Positions 53,253 through 63,271 of a stretch of 64,000 nucleotides of DNA are shown here, one piece after another. The stretch's first letter is position 1. Each line of letters begins with the position of its first letter. The position numbers and the translations under genes were made by a program. The notes under the pieces are model-generated. The model was not told where the DNA came from. It made no database searches and saw only the letters and a list, made by a program, of their open reading frames with translations. The stretch is from Gammaproteobacteria bacterium (GTDB taxonomy: Bacteria; Pseudomonadota; Gammaproteobacteria; Pseudomonadales; Alcanivoracaceae): NCBI GenBank assembly GCA_018067045.1, contig JAGPVL010000007.1, positions 1 to 64,000 on the forward strand, written 5' to 3'.

Positions 53253-54650
53253 ATGAAAAATACACTTACGATTGGCAGCGTTTTAGTCATGTCACTTTTT
53301 TTAAGCGCATGTGGCGCAGAAAGCAAAGATGACAACGCTGCGGAAAGTATGACTGCCACACCAGAAGCAGGCTCTGCCTCGGGCGGTGCCTCTGGTTCAG
53401 GCTCTTCTGGCTCAGGCGGCGGCGCTACATTACCTAGCATTACCGTCACTCCTCCGGACTGCACCACGAACTGCGACTTTGTTGGGCTTTTATCTGACAC
53501 CGGAAAACACACGCCACCCGGCGCAAGCAATCCTGCTTTGCATAGCGCATACGTCGATGCAACATTTGGCACGACTATTCACCGCGTCACCGCGAACTCT
53601 CAAATCAGCGGCGTCAGTCGGGTTCGTCACTATTACAGTAAACAGAACCCTTTTAACGCCGATGGAAGCTATGCCATGTTCGTGGCAAGCAACGGCACCT
53701 ATTGGGTTTACGACGCAGCGACGTTCGAACCAATTCTGAACGCATCGGAATATCCACATGTAAGCTCCAGCGAACCGGAGATTCAATGGCATCCAACGAA
53801 TCCAGATCAGTTCTATTACCTTGAAGGCACTGAATTTTCGCGCTTCGAAATTTCATCAATAACCACAACTGTTCTGCATGACTTCGCCGATGAAGGGTTC
53901 AGTTCTGTTGCGGGCCGACTTGAAGGAAACATGGATAAGTCGGGTCGTTATTACGCCATGATCGGCGAATCTGGAAGTAACAGCCACGCCTTTGTTTATG
54001 ATGTTCAAAACGACCAGTTATCCCAGCGTATTAATATCAATGATATCGAAGACGAAGGTATCGATTGGATTAGCATCAGTCAGAACGGCAATTTCGTCGT
54101 GATAATGGGTCATGATTACTCGTATGTTTACGATCACAACATGAACTATAAAGGTCGTTTACCAGAAGGAAGTTACGGCCACGCAGACTTATGCAGCCTC
54201 GCTAATGGTCGTGAAGTGATGGTTTACGACGGTGCGGATCATGTTGTCGCCAGTGACGGCGATCGCTGGATTAATATGGCCTACCTCGACACCGTAACGG
54301 GCGACGGCGGCGGCACAGTTGACCCATTAATTAAAATTGGCTGGAGCACCACGCCACATGTTTCTTGCCGCAATACCGAGTTTCCTGGCTGGGCACTGAT
54401 CTCTACTCAAGGTAACGGTAGCAACAACTACGATAAGGAAATCTTCTGGGCTAAACTCGACGGCTCTGGCGAAGTCCGTCGCGTCGCCCATCATTATTCC
54501 AATCGCGAGAGCGGCGGCTACTTCGCAGAACAACACGCAGTCACCAACAAACATGGCACAAAGATCATCTTCGCCAGCAACTACGGAAGCGGTGCGATTT
54601 CATCCTACCTCATCGACTTAACCGATTTCCGCAGACCACTAGCTGAGTAG
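53253..54650 (+). CDS. Secreted lipoprotein, propeller-like, paralogue of the protein at 55564
   Basis: A 465-residue lipoprotein (lipobox LSAC, Cys 20), a Gly/Ser-rich linker (about 45-65), then a beta-rich domain that I do not recognise as a named family. WD/TolB-like short motifs such as YWVYDAATFEPILN and FVYDVQNDQL suggest a beta-propeller. It shares HYYSKQNPFNADGS, GSYGHADLC, TPHVSCRN, FPGWALISTQG and YFAEQHAVTNKHGTKI with the protein encoded convergently at 55564-56826. It may bind or process a polysaccharide; this is only suggested by the nearby exopolysaccharide operon. It has its own 252-base upstream region. Confidence 0.82.
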   Translation: MKNTLTIGSVLVMSLFLSACGAESKDDNAAESMTATPEAGSASGGASGSGSSGSGGGATLPSITVTPPDCTTNCDFVGLLSDTGKHTPPGASNPALHSAYVDATFGTTIHRVTANSQISGVSRVRHYYSKQNPFNADGSYAMFVASNGTYWVYDAATFEPILNASEYPHVSSSEPEIQWHPTNPDQFYYLEGTEFSRFEISSITTTVLHDFADEGFSSVAGRLEGNMDKSGRYYAMIGESGSNSHAFVYDVQNDQLSQRININDIEDEGIDWISISQNGNFVVIMGHDYSYVYDHNMNYKGRLPEGSYGHADLCSLANGREVMVYDGADHVVASDGDRWINMAYLDTVTGDGGGTVDPLIKIGWSTTPHVSCRNTEFPGWALISTQGNGSNNYDKEIFWAKLDGSGEVRRVAHHYSNRESGGYFAEQHAVTNKHGTKIIFASNYGSGAISSYLIDLTDFRRPLAE

Positions 54651-54682
54651 GGACGTTCGCTGAACCCCGCATCAGCGTAAAC

Positions 54683-54715
54683 AAAAAAGGCGGCCCCTTA
54701 CGGGCCGCCTTTTTT
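54683..54715. terminator. Bidirectional rho-independent terminator
   Basis: GGCGGCCC (54689-54696) pairs with GGGCCGCC (54702-54709) around a five-base loop, flanked by A6 and T6. It lies between the convergent ends of the propeller lipoprotein gene and the exopolysaccharide operon and can end both. Confidence 0.93.
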
Positions 54716-54762
54716 GTCTTTACTTTCGATGGTATAGCTCAGTCCTTATCGCTAAAACCTCG

Positions 54763-55563
54763 TTACTGACTCGCAACCGGCGCCTCTCCATTTCCCACAA
54801 TCCAATACCACAGTAAACCTTGGAACTCATGCAGCGCCATGGAGCTTTTCTGCAAAGGACGAATAGAAGGAATCCATAGGCCACCGAAATCAGGTCGAAA
54901 TGCCCGTTGATCGACCGGCCAAGGACAAACGTTAAAGCCCGATCGGGAAAATGTCGCTAGCGCGCGCGGCATATGCATCGCAGACGTCACCAAAAATATC
55001 TTCTCGCTTTCACTGCTGTCCGCTTCACTTGCACTAAGTAATCTGCCTACGCCCTCAGCATTCTGCCGCGTTGTCATGGAATCACGCTCTAACAGCAACT
55101 GATCATGGGCAACGCCTGCCTGAGTCGCTAGCAATGCCATCAAATCTGCCTCACGGACATCACCATAGCCTCCGCCACTCAGCACAACCATTGGCGCGCG
55201 CTCCAACTGATTCCATAAGCGTAGCCCCGCATAGGTTCGGACCAATGTCGTCTCCATTAGCGCTTCAATTTCATCGGGGTCTGCATTGCTACCCTTTTTA
55301 CCGCCACCGAGGATCACAATCGCATCAGTCTTAGCAAAACCATCACACACTTGTGTACTGCGATAATTGCGTTCCAACAACCACACCAGTGCGTTGGCAC
55401 CTAGCGGCGAAGCAACAAACCAAAAAGAAAGCAGTAGCAACACGCTTATACGCCAATTTCTCCGCCCACTCACAGCCCGAGCGCGCCATAAACTGAAGGT
55501 CAGCCAAATAAGCCCCAACCAAATCAGCGCAACAGGCTCTAACAACAGCTTAAAATAGTGCAT
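54763..55563 (-). CDS. YdcF/ElyC-family (DUF218) inner membrane protein
   Basis: A 266-residue protein with two N-terminal transmembrane helices (about 8-25 and 40-58) and a DUF218 domain: DAIVILGGGKKGSN, VVLSGGGYGDVREAD, DSMTTRQNA, LVTSAMHMPRAL. The family includes ElyC, SanA and YdcF, linked to envelope and polysaccharide steps but without a settled reaction. The gene starts immediately after the stop of the preceding gene and is the last of the exopolysaccharide operon. Confidence 0.9.
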   Translation of the reverse strand: MHYFKLLLEPVALIWLGLIWLTFSLWRARAVSGRRNWRISVLLLLSFWFVASPLGANALVWLLERNYRSTQVCDGFAKTDAIVILGGGKKGSNADPDEIEALMETTLVRTYAGLRLWNQLERAPMVVLSGGGYGDVREADLMALLATQAGVAHDQLLLERDSMTTRQNAEGVGRLLSASEADSSESEKIFLVTSAMHMPRALATFSRSGFNVCPWPVDQRAFRPDFGGLWIPSIRPLQKSSMALHEFQGLLWYWIVGNGEAPVASQ

Positions 55564-56826
55564 CTATTTCTTTGGCAGCTGAATGAGGTATTCATTCACT
55601 TCATCGCCACCCCAGTTAGACGCAAATAAAATTTTCGTCCCATCCCTGTTTGTCACAGCATGTTGCTCCGCAAAATAGCCGCCCTCTTCTCGACTTGAAT
55701 GGTGGTGGGCCAAGCGCCGCACCTCACCTGATCCATCCAATTTTAACCAAAACACCTCAAAATCCACGTTAGGATAATCGCTTCGTCCCCTATCACTACC
55801 CTGTGTTGAAATCAGCGCCCAACCAGGAAATTCGAAGTTACGACATGACACATGCGGCGTTGCGCCCCAACCAATGCGCGTACCAATCTCAAGCTCACCA
55901 CTATCAAGCCAAGCAATATTAATATTGCGGTCGCCGTTTAGCTGCAAATCCGCTCCGTCAAACACTAATGCCTCACGCCCGGAGCGCGTTAAACAGAGAT
56001 CACCGTGACCATAACTGCCCTCAGGCAAGGTGTGTATTACCTTAAGCTGCCTATCCAATATTCGCGTATGTTCTTTTCCCATCGCAACAACATACTTGCC
56101 GGACGGACTAACGCTAATCCAATCATTGACCCAGCGGGGGTTTACATTCTTCTTCGCAATAATCTTTCCGGCATTAATATCAACCAATGCCATGGCCATT
56201 TTCTTGCCGTCTTCCTGAGTCTTTCCCGCAACGGCATAAACGCTCATTGCTCGATCCGGGTTACCTTCCATCATGCCATTGGCGGAAATAAAACCTTCCT
56301 TCTCTAAATCAAGCAATAATGTTTTCTTACCCGTTGCCGCGTTTAACCAAAACATTCTGGAAATGTTGTAGTTAGAACCAAAGTCCATCAGAAATATTTT
56401 ATCTTTATCTACTGGGTGCCAGTGCACTTCTGCGTCACTGCTTTGCAATGGCAAGTAACCTATAGGCTCCCAGGTTTTTGTATCGTAAACCCAGTTATAC
56501 CCATCACTGGAAATCAGCACAGCACGACTTTCGTCGGCATTGAACGGGTTCCTCTTTGCATAGTAATGACGCAATCGTTCAACGCCTTTGACTTGATTGC
56601 TGTCGCTGACGCGAGTTATCCGAGCACCAAAACTTGGATCAACAATTTCCTTGTGCAACGGAGGACGCTTTTCGTCAGAAACCGGCACAACCTTCTTGTC
56701 GGTTCTAAACGCGACAAGGTCGGGCTGAGAGTACGCCGCAGCACAAAGCAAAACCAACCCGCTTGCCGCTAGCGCTCTCCCGCGCCGACACATACTGCTA
56801 CGAATATTAAAGAAGTGAAGCTTCAT
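55564..56826 (-). CDS. Secreted propeller-like protein of the exopolysaccharide operon
   Basis: A 420-residue protein with an N-terminal signal (hydrophobic ALAASGLVLLCAAAYS at about 20-34), followed by a beta-rich domain like that of the lipoprotein at 53253. Shared segments include HYYAKRNPFNADES, WVYDTKTWEPI, GSYGHGDLC, TPHVSCRN, FPGWALISTQG and YFAEQHAVTNRDGTKILFASNWGG. I use the ATG at 56826, which has GAGAG upstream and overlaps the glycosyltransferase gene by 20 bases; an internal Met at 56793 is an alternative. A role in binding, cutting or exporting the polymer is possible but unproven. Confidence 0.82.
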   Translation of the reverse strand: MKLHFFNIRSSMCRRGRALAASGLVLLCAAAYSQPDLVAFRTDKKVVPVSDEKRPPLHKEIVDPSFGARITRVSDSNQVKGVERLRHYYAKRNPFNADESRAVLISSDGYNWVYDTKTWEPIGYLPLQSSDAEVHWHPVDKDKIFLMDFGSNYNISRMFWLNAATGKKTLLLDLEKEGFISANGMMEGNPDRAMSVYAVAGKTQEDGKKMAMALVDINAGKIIAKKNVNPRWVNDWISVSPSGKYVVAMGKEHTRILDRQLKVIHTLPEGSYGHGDLCLTRSGREALVFDGADLQLNGDRNINIAWLDSGELEIGTRIGWGATPHVSCRNFEFPGWALISTQGSDRGRSDYPNVDFEVFWLKLDGSGEVRRLAHHHSSREEGGYFAEQHAVTNRDGTKILFASNWGGDEVNEYLIQLPKK

Positions 56827-57934
56827 ACACGCTCTCATCGCCTTCAATCCATTGTTTACGAGAAAACAACCTCTCGACGCGTTCCCGTGCAGCATGCCCC
56901 ATCGCGATATGGCACTTATCACTCGTGATATTCTGCATCGCAGTCGCTAGCGACTCCACATTTCCCGCCTCAAAGAGGATGCCTGTCACACCATCATCAA
57001 CGACCTCTGGACAACCGCCTATGCGCGGTGCAACTACAGCCCGACCCGCTGCCATTGCCTCTCTAGCCGCTAATGGAAAGGACTCACGTGTCGACGACAA
57101 TACAAAGACATCAAAAATCGACAAGAAATCGGGAATATTACGTTTGACCCCAGTGAAAATAATATTCTCGCCCAACCCAAGCTCTAGCGCCTGCTTATGA
57201 ATATCCTCCCGTAATGGTCCATCTCCAACCACCATTAAACGAGCATTCGGTGTCGTCTCTAATACAGCGGCAAATGCCGGCAATAAGAAGCAGTGCCCTT
57301 TCTCTTCCGACAACCGCGCGACAATGCCAAAGATAAGGTGCTTGGATTTGTCCAGCCCATATTCTTCTAACAGCGCCAGCTCAGGCTCTTTGGGCAGGAA
57401 ACGTTCAGTATCAATACCGCTATGAATAACGACGCTCTTTTCTGCCTGCAAACCAGACGCCAGCAACCGATCACGCTCATAGTGTGACTCGAAAATTACA
57501 TGGTCACAGGCGGCACGCAGCAGCCATCCGCCATAGCGAAAATGCATCGGATTATGAATATTATGGATAGTGGTAATAATCGGTATGCGTTTACCCGTCA
57601 ATTTGACTCGGTAGGAGAAAGGCAAAATTCTTAATGCGACTAAAGCAACTAGTGTTGTGCGAACAGACTGCGGCGCTAACACTTCAATCTGATTCGCAAC
57701 GACAATGGCGCGAAGCTTTCTAGCCGCTCGCCACAGACCCTGCAAGCCGCTAAAGTGAAAATCCGCCGAAATAAAGGTCACCCCCTTTTCCTCAAGCTCG
57801 GGAAGCAACTCACCTTCTTTCGTGGCCAAAAAAACATCATGGCCGCGAGCGGTAAGGTCCGGCCCTAGCGCCAACATATCCGACTGCACGCCGCCGACCC
57901 CAAAAGGCTCTGTCATTAAATACAATAACTTCAA
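56807..57934 (-). CDS. GT4-family glycosyltransferase
   Basis: A 375-residue GT-B glycosyltransferase. The N-terminal acceptor domain begins KLLYLMTEPFGVGGVQSDM; the C-terminal donor domain has FGIVARLSEEKGH, VVGDGPLRED and the E-x7-E motif in RESFPLAAREAMA. The sugar and acceptor cannot be read from sequence. The start is TTG at 57934, with GGGAG seven bases upstream, overlapping the deacetylase stop (TTGA). Confidence 0.92.
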   Translation of the reverse strand: MKLLYLMTEPFGVGGVQSDMLALGPDLTARGHDVFLATKEGELLPELEEKGVTFISADFHFSGLQGLWRAARKLRAIVVANQIEVLAPQSVRTTLVALVALRILPFSYRVKLTGKRIPIITTIHNIHNPMHFRYGGWLLRAACDHVIFESHYERDRLLASGLQAEKSVVIHSGIDTERFLPKEPELALLEEYGLDKSKHLIFGIVARLSEEKGHCFLLPAFAAVLETTPNARLMVVGDGPLREDIHKQALELGLGENIIFTGVKRNIPDFLSIFDVFVLSSTRESFPLAAREAMAAGRAVVAPRIGGCPEVVDDGVTGILFEAGNVESLATAMQNITSDKCHIAMGHAARERVERLFSRKQWIEGDESVYEASLL

Positions 57935-58785
57935 TGGTTAACTCCCTTTAACTCTTTTTCCACCTGAGATTGCTTACTGAACTGGCGAGTGCGGCGCACA
58001 TGCAATACACCATGAATAAGATCAAAACAACCCGCAAGCTTTAACCGAAACAGCAATGGCGTATCCCGATCAGTCACCTCAGTCCTATGCAGCCAAAAAC
58101 GGTTTGTCGTTGGAAAGTTTACCCCTGGCGCAACAGTCACTGCGGCGACATAACCACTAGCTCTTACGCGGTGCGCTTCTCGCTCCGTAACATCACCGGA
58201 GGGATAGCAAAATATGCCATTGTGGGCCACGCCCGCCGCGGCCATGTCCGCCATACAGCCGGCAATTTCTTCACGACACTGTTCATCCGATACGCGCTGT
58301 AAGTAGGGGTGACTACGCGAATGGGCGCCCACTTCATTACCGGGAAAGCGCAGCCATTCTTTTACCTCTCCCCAGTTCATATGTAGCCGTGCCGATGAAC
58401 CATAGCGCGGATGCTGCTGAGCCCCAGACGCAAACTCTGTAGTCACAAAAACACTGGCCGGCAAGCCGCGCTCTTCCATCATCGGCAGCGCATGAGTGAG
58501 GTTATCCAAATAACCATCATCAAACGTTATGACCACGGTGTTTCTTTTCACTTTGCCGTTAGCCAGTTCCGTCAGGGCTTGCGTTAAAGAAATAACGCGA
58601 TACGATCTAGCTAAAATGTCCATCTGCTGAGAAAAGCGGCCGGGCGAGACCGTTAGTTGATCAAAGTGCGGTAATGAATCAACACGATGAAACATCAAGA
58701 TACGCACTCCAGGGCGCAAATAATTCGCGATCAAAGACACTGGGTAAAATGATAAGGCCACCAGTGTACGCAGCAATCCCTTCAT
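57931..58785 (-). CDS. Polysaccharide deacetylase (CE4/NodB domain)
   Basis: A 284-residue carbohydrate esterase family 4 protein. The metal and catalytic motifs are present: VVITFDDGYLDN (motif 1, base Asp and metal Asp), GAHSRSHPYLQ (motif 2, two His) and FCYPSGDV (motif 3). An N-terminal hydrophobic segment (about 6-24) may anchor it. It probably removes N-acetyl groups from the exopolymer or its precursor. It sits 24 bases after a GT4 gene and overlaps the next one. Confidence 0.92.
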   Translation of the reverse strand: MKGLLRTLVALSFYPVSLIANYLRPGVRILMFHRVDSLPHFDQLTVSPGRFSQQMDILARSYRVISLTQALTELANGKVKRNTVVITFDDGYLDNLTHALPMMEERGLPASVFVTTEFASGAQQHPRYGSSARLHMNWGEVKEWLRFPGNEVGAHSRSHPYLQRVSDEQCREEIAGCMADMAAAGVAHNGIFCYPSGDVTEREAHRVRASGYVAAVTVAPGVNFPTTNRFWLHRTEVTDRDTPLLFRLKLAGCFDLIHGVLHVRRTRQFSKQSQVEKELKGVNH

Positions 58786-58809: not shown

Positions 58810-59940
58810 TCATAACAACTCTTCCTGCCTGCCATCCACGACCTCTACCTCTCGATACAACGCCTCGTAGCAAGCGCTCAACTCTTTAGCACTATATTTC
58901 TCTTCAACCCTTTTTCGCGCCGATGTTCCCATTGCGTGGCGCATCTCAGGATCCATCAGTACGGTTTTCAGCGCCTCTGTTAGCGCTGCGGAATTTTTCG
59001 AGGGAACAACCAAGCCATCTAAACCATCACGCAAGACATCGCCAATTCCACCCACATCATGCGCCACCACGACGCGTGCCAACGCCATCGCCTCGAGAAG
59101 CGCCATCGGCAAACCTTCCCACTGAGACGGGATAACCAGTACATCGATCGCCGCCAATAGCTGAGGCACATCGCGCCGAAAGCCTGCAAAAAACACGTCA
59201 TCGCTCAACTGCAATGCATTGACCTGACTATGCAAAGCCTCTTTATCAGGTCCATCGCCAATAAATAGACAACACACTTTCACATGGTTATCGCGCAGTT
59301 GACGCAAACAGTTTAGTAGGTAGCCCTGTCCTTTGACCGGTTCCAGGCGACCAAGCACCGCCATAACAGGAACATTCGCTGGAATAGAAAATTCAGTTTG
59401 TATATTGATTGGCGCTACGTTTTGAAAACGCTCTAGGTCAACGGCATTGGCTAGTGTGACGACTTTATCCACTGCAATGCTATCCACTCGAACAAGTTTC
59501 TCTGCAACCTGTTGCGTACAAGCAATCAGCCGAGTCGTGATATGAGCCAATGCGCGATCGACCCTACGATGCACGCTTCCTTGCCATGCATTAACGCTAT
59601 GCACTGTCGAAAATATTCCCGGCACTCTTGCTAACTTCGCTGCAATTCGTCCCCAAGTATCCGCAGTGAATAAGTGCGTATGGACAATGGTCGGCCGCTC
59701 TCTCCGTAGCCAGCGCCAAAGCCTAAAAAGCATTAGAAGATCGACACCCGGCTTCTTACCTAAGATATGAATCGGCACGCCCATCGCACGAATCACTGAT
59801 TCAAACTCGCCCCCCTCAACCAAACATAAAACCTGGTACCGAAAATCATCACTGCGATAACACAGCAGTTCACACAGTAAACGTTCAGCACCATCCGGGG
59901 GTAAGCGATCAATAATATGAACGACCAAAGGCTTACTCAT
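58810..59940 (-). CDS. GT4-family glycosyltransferase
   Basis: A 376-residue GT-B enzyme. N-terminal domain: VVHIIDRLPPDGAERLLCEL; donor domain: VLGRLEPVKGQGYLLNCL, FIGDGPDKEALH and the E-x7-E region SQWEGLPMALLEAMALARVVV. I chose the ATG at 59940, eight bases inside the end of the polymerase gene; the frame is open to 59958. Specificity is unknown. Confidence 0.92.
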   Translation of the reverse strand: MSKPLVVHIIDRLPPDGAERLLCELLCYRSDDFRYQVLCLVEGGEFESVIRAMGVPIHILGKKPGVDLLMLFRLWRWLRRERPTIVHTHLFTADTWGRIAAKLARVPGIFSTVHSVNAWQGSVHRRVDRALAHITTRLIACTQQVAEKLVRVDSIAVDKVVTLANAVDLERFQNVAPINIQTEFSIPANVPVMAVLGRLEPVKGQGYLLNCLRQLRDNHVKVCCLFIGDGPDKEALHSQVNALQLSDDVFFAGFRRDVPQLLAAIDVLVIPSQWEGLPMALLEAMALARVVVAHDVGGIGDVLRDGLDGLVVPSKNSAALTEALKTVLMDPEMRHAMGTSARKRVEEKYSAKELSACYEALYREVEVVDGRQEELL

Positions 59941-61447
59941 GCGTACCTCGGCGCACATGACCAGCTACTGTAGGCTTTCTAATCACTCTTCCGCTCTTTA
60001 ACTCAGCAAAGAGATGGCCCAATATGGCGAGGTATACCCACACGTAAACGCATACTTCAATGTTCACCATGCGTGAGCCAAACATATTGATTACCACAAC
60101 TGCCCCCGCCATACCGGCTCCGCCAAGCCCCAAGCTTTTCGCAAAGCCGTCCTCTGCTTTACGCCAAACCACATAGCCAAAACCGAACAAGCATGCAAGA
60201 CAAGATAGAAACGCAATTAACGCAGGGATACCCATCTGGGAACACACGAAGAGAAACATGTTATGGGTATCAGACTCTAGGACATCAATCGCCGTATAGC
60301 GCCCCTTAAAATATTGGAAGCTCTTAAACCCCTTACCAAGGATGGGACTTTCCGCCGTAATCTCCAACGCGGCGTCCCACAAAATGAGCCGTGTTTGAGA
60401 GCTTGCATCGACCTGTGCAGAATGACTTCCCTGCACCGTCGTTTGCGCCATACGATCCCGTAACGAATCGGGAATGAGTCCTGGCAGCGCCGCAAACAGA
60501 ACCATCACCGCAACGACAGCCAGAAAGACATAACGCAAACCTCGGAACCAGGTAATGGCCGCGAGCGCCGCACCAAACGCCAAATAGGCACCACGTGAGA
60601 AGGTGGCCAGCAAAACCTTAACCAAAACACCAAGCCATGGCAGCAATATCCACCGCTTCACCTCAAAAGGCTTGTACGCCAATATCGATGCGATAATGCA
60701 GCCGGCATAGACTAGAAATGCCCCAAAGTCATTGGGCTGTTCCTGCGGCCCAATAACACGACTTTTTTCCATGGAATCGAGCCCCTGCTTTTCCAGCATT
60801 TCTTTCACACCAAACATCAGCACGACCAAGGAGCCAAGCAACAGATAGACCGCGATACGACGCGCCATGCGCCCATCGACAATAAGATTGAGCACAGCAA
60901 AATAAACGATGAACTGATCGATCCACGCCTTGTACTCAAGAAATACATCAGAAATTAGGTAGGAGAGCCCTATGTAGAAAACAACAGTAAGCCCCGACAA
61001 GGCACTTAATACGCCCCACATCATCATCGGGCGCGTACCAGGTATCGACCGAAAAAAAGGCTGCTTTCGTTTGGCCGCATGCACAGCCCAAAAGAAAACC
61101 AACATTAATAAAACAATATTTGTTCCGTTAATCCCTGGAACAATCGCAGCAGGAAAAATTCTAGCGAGCGGAATATAGATCAATGAAACGGCGAGCAATG
61201 TTTCAGGGCTGCGAAATGAACGAATGACAAGCAGAAGGCCGATGAATCCGCCGCCACCATATAGCAATGGCTTGGGCACGCCGCCATCCCAAAATAACGT
61301 TGGCAATAAAAAAAGCACGGGCCAAATCAGGAACCTTAATGTGTACTTTATTTCGTCGATATCAAGCAACGAAGTACCATCAGGAACCTCAGGTAGCGGC
61401 TCATGTGGCCGTTTCAATCTAACCCCGGAAGAAGCGATAGAGCTCAT
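59933..61447 (-). CDS. O-antigen ligase/polymerase-like (Wzy/WaaL family) membrane protein
   Basis: A 504-residue protein with about ten to twelve transmembrane segments and the large periplasmic loop of the Wzy_C family (about residues 285-400: TFSRGAYLAFGAALAAI, SSQTRLILWDAALEI, ESPILGKGFKSFQYFK, DTHNMFLFVCSQMG). It most likely polymerises lipid-linked oligosaccharide units of the exopolymer. It overlaps the adjacent deacetylase gene by 29 bases. Confidence 0.9.
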   Translation of the reverse strand: MSSIASSGVRLKRPHEPLPEVPDGTSLLDIDEIKYTLRFLIWPVLFLLPTLFWDGGVPKPLLYGGGGFIGLLLVIRSFRSPETLLAVSLIYIPLARIFPAAIVPGINGTNIVLLMLVFFWAVHAAKRKQPFFRSIPGTRPMMMWGVLSALSGLTVVFYIGLSYLISDVFLEYKAWIDQFIVYFAVLNLIVDGRMARRIAVYLLLGSLVVLMFGVKEMLEKQGLDSMEKSRVIGPQEQPNDFGAFLVYAGCIIASILAYKPFEVKRWILLPWLGVLVKVLLATFSRGAYLAFGAALAAITWFRGLRYVFLAVVAVMVLFAALPGLIPDSLRDRMAQTTVQGSHSAQVDASSQTRLILWDAALEITAESPILGKGFKSFQYFKGRYTAIDVLESDTHNMFLFVCSQMGIPALIAFLSCLACLFGFGYVVWRKAEDGFAKSLGLGGAGMAGAVVVINMFGSRMVNIEVCVYVWVYLAILGHLFAELKSGRVIRKPTVAGHVRRGTHE

Positions 61448-62132
61448 GATACCCCCGGTTACCTAACACGCTTTTTACTATTCGTTTGATCAAATAGCTC
61501 AGCTTCATCTTGACCCAAAGCGGCCTATCACCACTGACAACACGGGCAAGCCACAGCACCGAACTGTCTGCGCGCACCGCAACACGAGGGCGACAAAACT
61601 CATTACCCTGCACTCGCCCTGGAACTGACGTATAGCACACCTCGTAACCCGCCGCCTGCGCCAAGCGTAGCTCCCTACGGCCATATCGGCCTCCAGGAAA
61701 TGACATTGAGCGAACCTTTGTATTTAATCGGCGCTCAATAATACTCTTCGACTCCACCAACTCATTACGGCACGTGACCTCATCTAGGTCCGGCAGAAAT
61801 TGATGGGTAAGACCATGTGCGCCGATCTCGTGCCCCGCAGCGCTCAGCGCAGACAAGCCTTCCCAGTCACAATAGCCTGGCGTACCAATCAAACGAGGCG
61901 TCACAAAAAACAGGGCTTTTACAGAAAACTTTTCCAATATGGGAAGAGCCTCCAGATACCAACCCGCATCACCATCATCAAAGGTAATAAGCACCTTGTA
62001 GTCAGAAAATAGCGCAAGATGATCTGCCAAACGCGTAGTGTCGACGGCATAGGGATGATCCTCTTGCGGGATTGAATCCAAATGATGGGAATCACCGACA
62101 ATAGCGTGATACATCAACACAACCCTATTCAT
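61419..62132 (-). CDS. Polysaccharide deacetylase (CE4/NodB domain)
   Basis: A 237-residue CE4-type protein. Motif 1 is VLITFDDGDAGW, motif 2 IGAHGLTHQFL, motif 3 SFPGGRYGRRE. No signal peptide is seen, so it may act on a cytosolic or membrane-bound intermediate. I chose the ATG at 62132, which overlaps the GT2 stop by four bases (ATGA). The C-terminal 40 residues are basic and helical. Confidence 0.9.
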   Translation of the reverse strand: MNRVVLMYHAIVGDSHHLDSIPQEDHPYAVDTTRLADHLALFSDYKVLITFDDGDAGWYLEALPILEKFSVKALFFVTPRLIGTPGYCDWEGLSALSAAGHEIGAHGLTHQFLPDLDEVTCRNELVESKSIIERRLNTKVRSMSFPGGRYGRRELRLAQAAGYEVCYTSVPGRVQGNEFCRPRVAVRADSSVLWLARVVSGDRPLWVKMKLSYLIKRIVKSVLGNRGYHELYRFFRG

Positions 62133-63271
62133 GCGGTCCGCTCCCAACGTGCATCGACAACGCCGAAATAAAACTTGTAGGCACCCATAACCGCAGCAAC
62201 GTTCAACTCAACAAATAATCTTGCTATCGCCGCGAGGCCGCGCTTGCAGCCAACCCAGCCTCGTACGTTCCCCACTGCTAGGAAATAGAACGCTACCTGT
62301 GCAAACCAGAGCCACATGTAAAGACCGTAAAAATTAAACAGTGGAGCAACAAGCAAGGCAACAAGACAATACGGCACAATAAGACGCAGCACCTTGTGAG
62401 AAATAAACTGCCACCATATTGGGTTAATCAACGGTACAAACAACCACGCATTACGCGAAAAAGCTTGGTAGTTTCCGGCGAGCGTGCGAATCTTCCGAGC
62501 CTTCTCTTTCTCTATATTTTCTGATGGATAATCAAAAACCCGTGCCCCGCCATCAAAAATAATTCGCTCACCTGCGCGCAATGCGGACAGCGGCATTTCA
62601 AAGTCATCAAGCAATGAATCATCCGCCAACGGCCTGACATACTCTTTCTTAATGAGATACAGCGCACCAGTTACACCTGGAACAGATCCATAGCGACTCT
62701 CTGCCTGCCGAATGATTTTTTCATAACGCCAGTACAACCCGATATTCGCTTCATCCTTATTCTCATCTAGAAACACCAGCTCCCCACTCACAGCACCAAC
62801 CTTCTGCGAACAGCCCTCTCCATAACTCAGCATAGAAGTGACTAGCGATCTCAGAGCATCTTGATCTACCATCTGTCGCGCATCGGTAAACAGTACAAGC
62901 TCATGCCGCGCCACGACCATTGCCGCATTCAATGCAGCAGGCTTGCCGCTCCGAGCCGGTAAAATGACAACATCCACGCCGGAAGCGGCACAGCGTCGTA
63001 TCACCTCTGCGGTATCGTCTTCCTCGCCATCAGAGACAAAAACAATCTGTACGTCTCCCGCATAATTAAGCGCTTTTAACGTAGCGAGCTTTGGGTGGAC
63101 ACGGCCACTCTCATTGCAAAACGGCACGATAATCGTCACCGCCGGCCAATCGCGTAGTTCAACTTGTGTAGACAGCTCACGCGTCTTCGACAGAACTAGG
63201 ATCGCTAATGGATAACCTATATAGGTGTAAACTACCAAAAAAAATGCAGCCCAAAATATGACGATCATCAT
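62129..63271 (-). CDS. GT2-family membrane glycosyltransferase
   Basis: A 380-residue processive-type GT2 enzyme. An N-terminal transmembrane helix (about 3-20) precedes the GT-A domain (VTIIVPFCNESGRVH, IVFVSDGEEDDTAEV, ARSGKPAALNAAM, LFTDARQMVDQDAL, and a D-D-F-E acceptor-site motif), followed by three or four C-terminal membrane helices. It resembles poly-GlcNAc/cellulose-synthase-type enzymes without the full QxxRW hallmark being evident. It overlaps both neighbours by four bases. Confidence 0.91.
   Translation of the reverse strand: MMIVIFWAAFFLVVYTYIGYPLAILVLSKTRELSTQVELRDWPAVTIIVPFCNESGRVHPKLATLKALNYAGDVQIVFVSDGEEDDTAEVIRRCAASGVDVVILPARSGKPAALNAAMVVARHELVLFTDARQMVDQDALRSLVTSMLSYGEGCSQKVGAVSGELVFLDENKDEANIGLYWRYEKIIRQAESRYGSVPGVTGALYLIKKEYVRPLADDSLLDDFEMPLSALRAGERIIFDGGARVFDYPSENIEKEKARKIRTLAGNYQAFSRNAWLFVPLINPIWWQFISHKVLRLIVPYCLVALLVAPLFNFYGLYMWLWFAQVAFYFLAVGNVRGWVGCKRGLAAIARLFVELNVAAVMGAYKFYFGVVDARWERTA

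Follow-up and report, generated by a model that had tools for sequence, protein, structure and literature searches.

Two paralogous secreted proteins at an exopolysaccharide locus share a predicted propeller fold and candidate pocket residues with PL22 lyases

Why would an exopolysaccharide (EPS) locus carry two versions of a secreted protein that belongs to no named family, and what might these proteins do? We addressed this question for a 64,000-nucleotide stretch of DNA from a gammaproteobacterium of the Alcanivoracaceae (assembly GCA_018067045.1, contig JAGPVL010000007.1, positions 1 to 64,000; hereafter, the window), in which two genes encode the proteins that we call P0001 and P0002:

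53253–54650, plus strand: P0001, 465 amino acids, predicted outer-membrane lipoprotein form of a PL22-like propeller
55564–56826, minus strand: P0002, 420 amino acids, signal-peptide form (soluble, periplasmic or secreted) of a PL22-like propeller

The likeness of the P0001/P0002 family to the PL22 oligogalacturonate lyases, in predicted fold and in aligned pocket residues, is well supported. The family seems to share its origin with PL22 and may work likewise; it fails the test for PF14583, the Pfam family of PL22. Tentatively, and at somewhat less than an even chance, we read P0001 and P0002 as a pair of PL22-like metal-dependent lyases that would trim or clear the cell's own EPS.

Both open reading frames were confirmed, and their products are paralogues, as a preliminary description of the window had claimed: 180 of 396 residues are identical (45%; BLASTP, E = 2e-116 for a single comparison), and the five motifs quoted in that description are all present in both proteins. 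The similarity begins at residue 75 of P0001. The N-terminus of P0001 has a signal peptide, a lipobox (LSAC) and then a Gly/Ser-rich linker, which bears out the extra lipid anchor and linker noticed earlier; P0002 has a signal peptide without a lipobox. These features were read from the sequence, and by the +2 rule P0001 is presumably sorted to the outer membrane. In genome G274, the only congener in our genome search, the pair, its order and its neighbours are all conserved. Between the two species, P0002 is 74% identical and P0001 68% identical; synonymous sites are too saturated for an estimate of the ratio of nonsynonymous to synonymous substitution rates.

Assignment to a known family by profile or by sequence search of the PDB was rejected. 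For P0001 and P0002, nothing exceeded the cut-offs in Pfam (best E = 0.014) or NCBIfam (best E = 0.0017, to the signal-peptide/linker stretch), in agreement with the earlier remark that no named family was known for them. The best match in PHROGs had E = 0.019, the PDB sequence search found no relative (two chance-level matches in one search, E = 0.38 and 0.42), the viral sequence collection held no relative, and the literature matches listed for the family or for propellers in EPS loci included nothing on the family. PF14583 gave no line for either protein at E ≤ 5 and no match in their own genome. We also scanned two sets of aligned family members, both including the window proteins and with fusions trimmed. 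PF14583 matched one of the 14 members of alignment A1 (E = 0.0053) and was absent from the complete list of 10 Pfam families for the 25 members of alignment A4, 12 of which matched PD40 repeats at E ≤ 0.1 (best 9.5e-5).

Structure prediction and structure comparison place the family closest to PL22, as the preliminary description had guessed. The P0002 model, built from 25 sequences, has a predicted local distance difference test score (pLDDT) of 82.9 and a predicted template modelling score of 0.84, and its matches mark it as an all-strand propeller. (Predicted from its single sequence, P0001 gave a poor model, pLDDT 39.7, which was not used.) Foldseek ranked 3pe7 first (E = 3.0e-14, TMq 0.60) and 3c5m second (E = 4.9e-13, TMq 0.58); the next row had E = 2.4e-12 and TMq 0.46. 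Both structures are oligogalacturonate lyases, of family PL22, with seven-bladed propellers. When the model was compared with 980 chains by VIA-align, the same two structures again came first, with Z = 29.5 over 327 and 332 residues at a root-mean-square deviation of 3.6, and the next chain had Z = 22.4. The sequence identity of P0002 to 3pe7 and 3c5m is 13 to 18%. No ulvan lyase propeller of PL24 or PL25 was among the best 50 structure matches listed, which does not in itself exclude them.

For profile comparison, we aligned a PL22 set of proteins above the PF14583 cut-off, drawn from other genomes. With hhalign, 14 family members aligned with eight PF14583 proteins end to end over 331 columns (probability 97.9, E = 3.9e-13), and a second family alignment matched PL22 with probability 95.2 and E = 2.5e-8. 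TolB served as a control. Its match to the propeller family was partial, covering 163 of 412 profile columns (probability 86.3, E = 4.8e-6), and no full-length profile match of the family to TolB was found.

The candidate pocket residues of P0002 are Y89, N96, D98, H274, H325, E387 and H389, all of which are kept in P0001 too. In PL22, we take H287, Q350, H353 and H355 to be the metal ligands, H242 the base and R217 a substrate residue. The hhalign alignment of 14 members with eight PL22 proteins places H325 on H287, H389 on H355, E387 on H353 and H274 on H242, and the second hhalign alignment agrees on H274. A MAFFT alignment of 69 rows agrees on H325, E387 and H389, and it places Y89 on Y37 of PL22 and Y384 on Q350. 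We counted residues in 58 family rows and five PL22 rows of this alignment; six rows that are in the tree described below (L039, L095, L096, L098, L099 and L149) were left out, so that 58 of 64 were counted. Across the 58 family rows, Y89, N96, H274 and H325 never vary, and D98 is found in 57. All five PL22 rows share Y37 and H287; at position 353 three have H and two E, and at position 355 three have H and two N. In four of the seven family groups (the window clade, the pTAD1 clade, EPHclade and L087etc), 32 of 33 rows have the complete set H325-E387-H389. The preliminary description had suggested that conserved His, Arg and Gln residues in the C-terminal motifs could form a metal or sugar site. 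Conserved His residues in these motifs, together with a Glu, do align with the PL22 metal site; of the PL22 residues, Q350 and R217 are not kept.

The window and its continuation on the contig place P0002 in an operon. The neighbouring features are as follows:

54681–54717, plus strand: terminator-like hairpin (16 pairs) that separates the two convergent units
54763–55563, minus strand: gene of a DUF218/ElyC-like envelope protein (NF007794, 75.7 bits, below the cut-off of 205), directly downstream of P0002
56807–57934, minus strand: GT4-type glycosyltransferase, upstream of P0002, every model below cut-off
57931–58785, minus strand: CE4-type polysaccharide deacetylase, every model below cut-off
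58810–59958, minus strand: GT4-type glycosyltransferase, resembling TIGR03088 from exosortase-A systems (below cut-off)
59933–61447, minus strand: Wzy/O-antigen-ligase-like membrane protein, with TIGR03097 as best model (below cut-off)
61419–62147, minus strand: CE4-type polysaccharide deacetylase, below cut-off
62129–63271, minus strand: GT2-type glycosyltransferase, PgaC/NodC-like, below cut-off

The start of P0002 overlaps the adjacent GT4 gene by 20 bases, and the next base after its stop belongs to the DUF218/ElyC-like gene. Lying between these two genes, P0002 is therefore internal to the EPS operon, as described before. The locus extends past the window end to Wzz, Wza and EpsB-type genes, and in an NCBIfam scan of the contig three XrtA-type models exceeded their cut-offs: the chain-length protein Wzz (TIGR03007, 350 bits, cut-off 278.85), the export protein Wza (TIGR03027, 199.3 bits, cut-off 180) and the sugar transferase (TIGR03013, 567 bits, cut-off 393.35). 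The XrtA-associated kinase, hydrolases, ligase, amidotransferase and glycosyltransferases of the locus scored below their cut-offs. The neighbourhood is an exosortase-A-type EPS operon. P0001 comes after genes that read as suf-type and lies outside the EPS transcription unit. The terminator of the earlier description corresponds to the strong 16-pair hairpin, across which P0001 directly faces the DUF218/ElyC-like gene and not P0002. The hairpin scan as a whole found three sites, fewer than the 5.7 in shuffles, and the remaining two have six pairs each.

The exosortase family PF09721 had no match at E ≤ 0.001 in the genome of the window (G000, 96.01% complete), so that an exosortase-A-type EPS locus (contig C5, 60000–79500; L056) stands in a genome without a detectable exosortase. 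A NAD(+) synthase-type gene also lies within this locus (L056:7170–8171; NF002048, 466.8 bits, cut-off 313). Elsewhere, the genome encodes two nucleotide-sugar dehydrogenases above the TIGR03026 cut-off, one of them a TviB-type UDP-GlcNAc dehydrogenase above its own cut-off; uronate donors are therefore likely, and uronates are plausible building blocks. Across 57 related genomes, TIGR03007 exceeded its cut-off in 11. The propellers occur in two of these 11, the two congeners, and in none of the other 46, and we therefore regard them as an accessory of such loci rather than a core part.

Homologue matches were found in 13 of 274 genomes at class level and in 13 of 398 at phylum level (own genome included in both; at phylum level, the match in G546 was weak and partial, E = 1.8e-5), and in none of 34 other Alcanivoracaceae genomes. 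One of the class-level matches, in G057 (E = 9.2e-4, locus L014), was not treated as family because it reads as a YVTN-type propeller. There are 23 named loci with a homologue, with titles that include Myxococcales, Psychroserpens, Desulfobulbaceae, Sulfurovum and Thiotrichaceae. By record titles, the family occurs in several proteobacterial lineages and in metagenome-assembled genomes (MAGs) of Campylobacterota, Bacteroidota, Desulfobulbaceae and Myxococcales. One of 72,556 plasmid records carries a member, annotated "hypothetical protein": pTAD1 of Chelatococcus daeguensis, where it is flanked by a sugar-nucleotide/aminotransferase block and by an XrtA-labelled FemAB-CE4-GT-ligase block.

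To compare the surroundings of the homologues with controls, we used 28 EPS proteins, 18 from the window locus and 10 from L032, the pTAD1 locus, as queries against the open frames in 55 homologue loci and in 30 control stretches. The controls came from 18 of the genomes with G handles and none from the named loci. A stretch was scored positive if at least two kinds of EPS gene lay nearby, and loci of at least 9 kb were counted as long. By this measure 14 of 42 long homologue loci were positive, compared with none of the 30 controls; none of the 13 loci under 9 kb was positive, and these were set aside. Two of the positives, L032 and L033, are partly self-matches because they supplied or mirror the queries, and leaving both out gives 12 of 40. 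Several of the 42 loci come from the same genome (e.g., G190, G268, G066, G198 and G145), and the loci are therefore not independent. Four controls matched a single kind of EPS-type gene, an acyl ligase in L103 (two frames), L104 and L157 and a glycosyltransferase in L116; none had two kinds. In the pTAD1-protein clade, whose remaining genomes are of the same phylum, eight of nine loci (counting L032) were positive; there the propeller stands at one end of a nucleotidyltransferase-aminotransferase-sugar transferase-dehydratase block. The tree requires six changes for EPS linkage, compared with a shuffled mean of 16.0; L093, on the same contig as L037, was omitted, and L145, which is positive through AsnSyn, GT and SDR matches, was scored negative.

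With EPS genes beside 14 of the 42 long loci and not beside 28, the link recurs but is not general, and the proposal that homologues always lie next to glycosyltransferase/CE4 or other EPS genes was rejected. The preliminary description had named two outcomes that would count against it: a confident match to a known unrelated family, of which none exceeded its cut-off, and homologues away from polysaccharide genes, which is what we found, by our measure, at those 28 loci; the outcome is thus mixed. A general link of these other homologues to a different polysaccharide or catabolic cluster was likewise rejected: around 22 of the 28 EPS-negative long loci, no polysaccharide family recurs among the best 25 of 98 families. 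This flank scan covered 78 of 117 listed neighbours, from 24 EPS-negative loci (22 long and two short), and gave no recurrent family of any kind among those 25, although a family with a single match could be hidden in it.

How might the pair work? P0001 and P0002 would be the membrane-anchored and soluble copies of a secreted beta-propeller, a distant PL22 relative that appears to keep most of the PL22 metal and catalytic pocket. Their chemistry would be that of a divalent-metal-dependent lyase, cutting uronate-type linkages in the EPS of the operon. P0002 would clear or trim stray polymer in the periplasm, as AlgL does for alginate, and P0001 would act at the surface, on the outer membrane, on polymer leaving the cell; the two may handle the same polymer in different places.

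A number of results weigh against this reading. The lead of PL22 over unrelated propellers in Foldseek is small by E-value, although larger by TM-score. The four closest members alone, compared with strict PL22, gave an hhalign probability of 1.6 and E = 0.032. TolB matched PL22 itself with E = 1e-12 over 147 columns; since TolB matches both PL22 and the propeller family, hhalign E-values overstate kinship among propellers, and the case for kinship with PL22 rests more on the Z ranking and on the end-to-end alignment. In the pocket, the 69-row alignment puts H274 six residues away from H242, contrary to hhalign, Y384 stands in place of Q350, as a Y does in two of the five PL22 rows, and R217 is not conserved, falling on H253 in one hhalign alignment and on a gap in the other. 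Within the family, the marine-MAG clade of 20 rows (labelled "vent-type" here) has E387 in three rows and no H389 among 17 residues displayed, three L043 rows have neither E387 nor H389, and L080 and L081 are without H389. To these are added the 28 of 42 long loci without EPS genes, the presence of propellers in only two of 11 TIGR03007 genomes, and the position of the uronate genes on another contig, outside the EPS locus.

The same results bear on three other explanations. The main rival, which we consider rather unlikely, is a non-catalytic sugar-binding propeller whose pocket binds polymer, with or without metal; the proteins would then be export, retention or assembly factors, and the lipoprotein P0001 would hold polymer on the outer membrane. 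A secreted pair at an EPS operon fits such a role, as do the partial retention of the PL22 site, the persistence in the family of the vent-type clade after it lost H389 and mostly E387, and the tandem or fused domains described below, which binding modules often show. However, binding alone would not need H325, E387 and H389, which stand together in nearly every row of four groups, and the closest solved structures are enzymes. That the family resembles PL22 only as all propellers resemble one another, the proteins being ordinary structural propellers of TolB or WD40-like type, is very unlikely in our judgement. The strong partial match between TolB and PL22, the PD40 repeats in 12 of the 25 A4 members and the small Foldseek lead speak for it, whereas PL22 stands 7 Z units above all others of the 980 chains, the profile alignment with PL22 extends from end to end, and invariant residues of PL22 coincide with H325 and Y89, themselves invariant.

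An active enzyme of PL22-like fold may also have another substrate, such as foreign uronate oligosaccharides or another envelope glycan, or catalyse another reaction, with an EPS neighbourhood that is partly incidental. We regard this as unlikely, although 28 of 42 long loci lack EPS genes by our measure, the proteins flanking the 24 scanned loci are mixed and mostly housekeeping (among the 25 of 98 families displayed), and P0001 lies behind suf-type genes, not in the EPS transcription unit. Against it, EPS linkage is found across several separate clades, with far fewer changes than in shuffled trees, and none of the 30 controls has two kinds of EPS gene.

Comparison with known systems places the lyase reading in context. 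The typical PL22 enzyme is cytoplasmic, whereas P0001 and P0002 are predicted to be secreted. The window proteins share with PL22 (PF14583; 3pe7 and 3c5m) the fold match at Z = 29.5, the end-to-end profile, the placement of H325, H389 and H274 on H287, H355 and H242 in hhalign, and that of Y89 on Y37 in the 69-row alignment; they differ in having no PF14583 match, in E387 replacing H353, and in being without Q350 and R217. The role proposed for P0002 resembles that of AlgL, the alginate lyase that is encoded in the alginate operon and removes polymer from the periplasm (PMC8829089); P0002 would then be, like AlgL, a lyase encoded inside an EPS operon. In contrast to the predicted propeller of P0002, AlgL is an alpha/alpha toroid (PMC8829089). 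With exosortase-A (XrtA/PEP-CTERM) EPS loci, the window locus shares TIGR03007, TIGR03027 and TIGR03013 above cut-off and differs in that its genome has no detected exosortase.

Enzymes that cut the matrix polymer of their own operon, of which AlgL is an example, can set chain length, export and biofilm release, and they are useful tools for biofilm dispersal. In the parts of the literature covered, we found no polymer-cutting enzyme assigned to exosortase-A-type EPS loci, the passages of PMC1569441 covered make no mention of a propeller, and no literature match listed reports a propeller-type lyase serving polymer biosynthesis rather than pectin breakdown. For such a role, the propeller family offers a concrete candidate active site. 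The wider claim, that this is a new lyase family of PL22 descent whose soluble and outer-membrane copies edit the cell's own matrix from EPS operons of several proteobacterial lineages, is possible, though we hold it as doubtful.

Several members differ in architecture from the window pair. One aligned member has a C-terminal sorting tail in the Pfam scans of 14 and 25 members. Two distant members (L020:472–1923 and L027:1351–3219) end, by reading, in a hydrophobic tail with a basic terminus that resembles a PEP-CTERM/VPLPA-type sorting signal; PF07589 scored L020 below its cut-off (E = 0.049) and did not match L027. In the named MAG loci L041, L044 to L049, L051, L052, L054 and L055 (titles Sulfurovum, Thiotrichaceae, Lysobacterales, Campylobacteraceae, Alcanivoracaceae and one Proteobacteria bacterium), an N-terminal domain precedes the propeller. 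This domain matches alpha/beta-hydrolase or PETase-like Pfam families above cut-off in L041 and L046 and was read from similar motifs in the others, and these proteins are likely esterase-propeller fusions. Duplication is recurrent in the propeller family: three propeller genes stand in a row in a Granulosicoccaceae MAG (L043:9401–14086), G468 has four propeller domains (L145:6648–12690), and two propellers are fused in one frame in G190 (L092:8204–12307).

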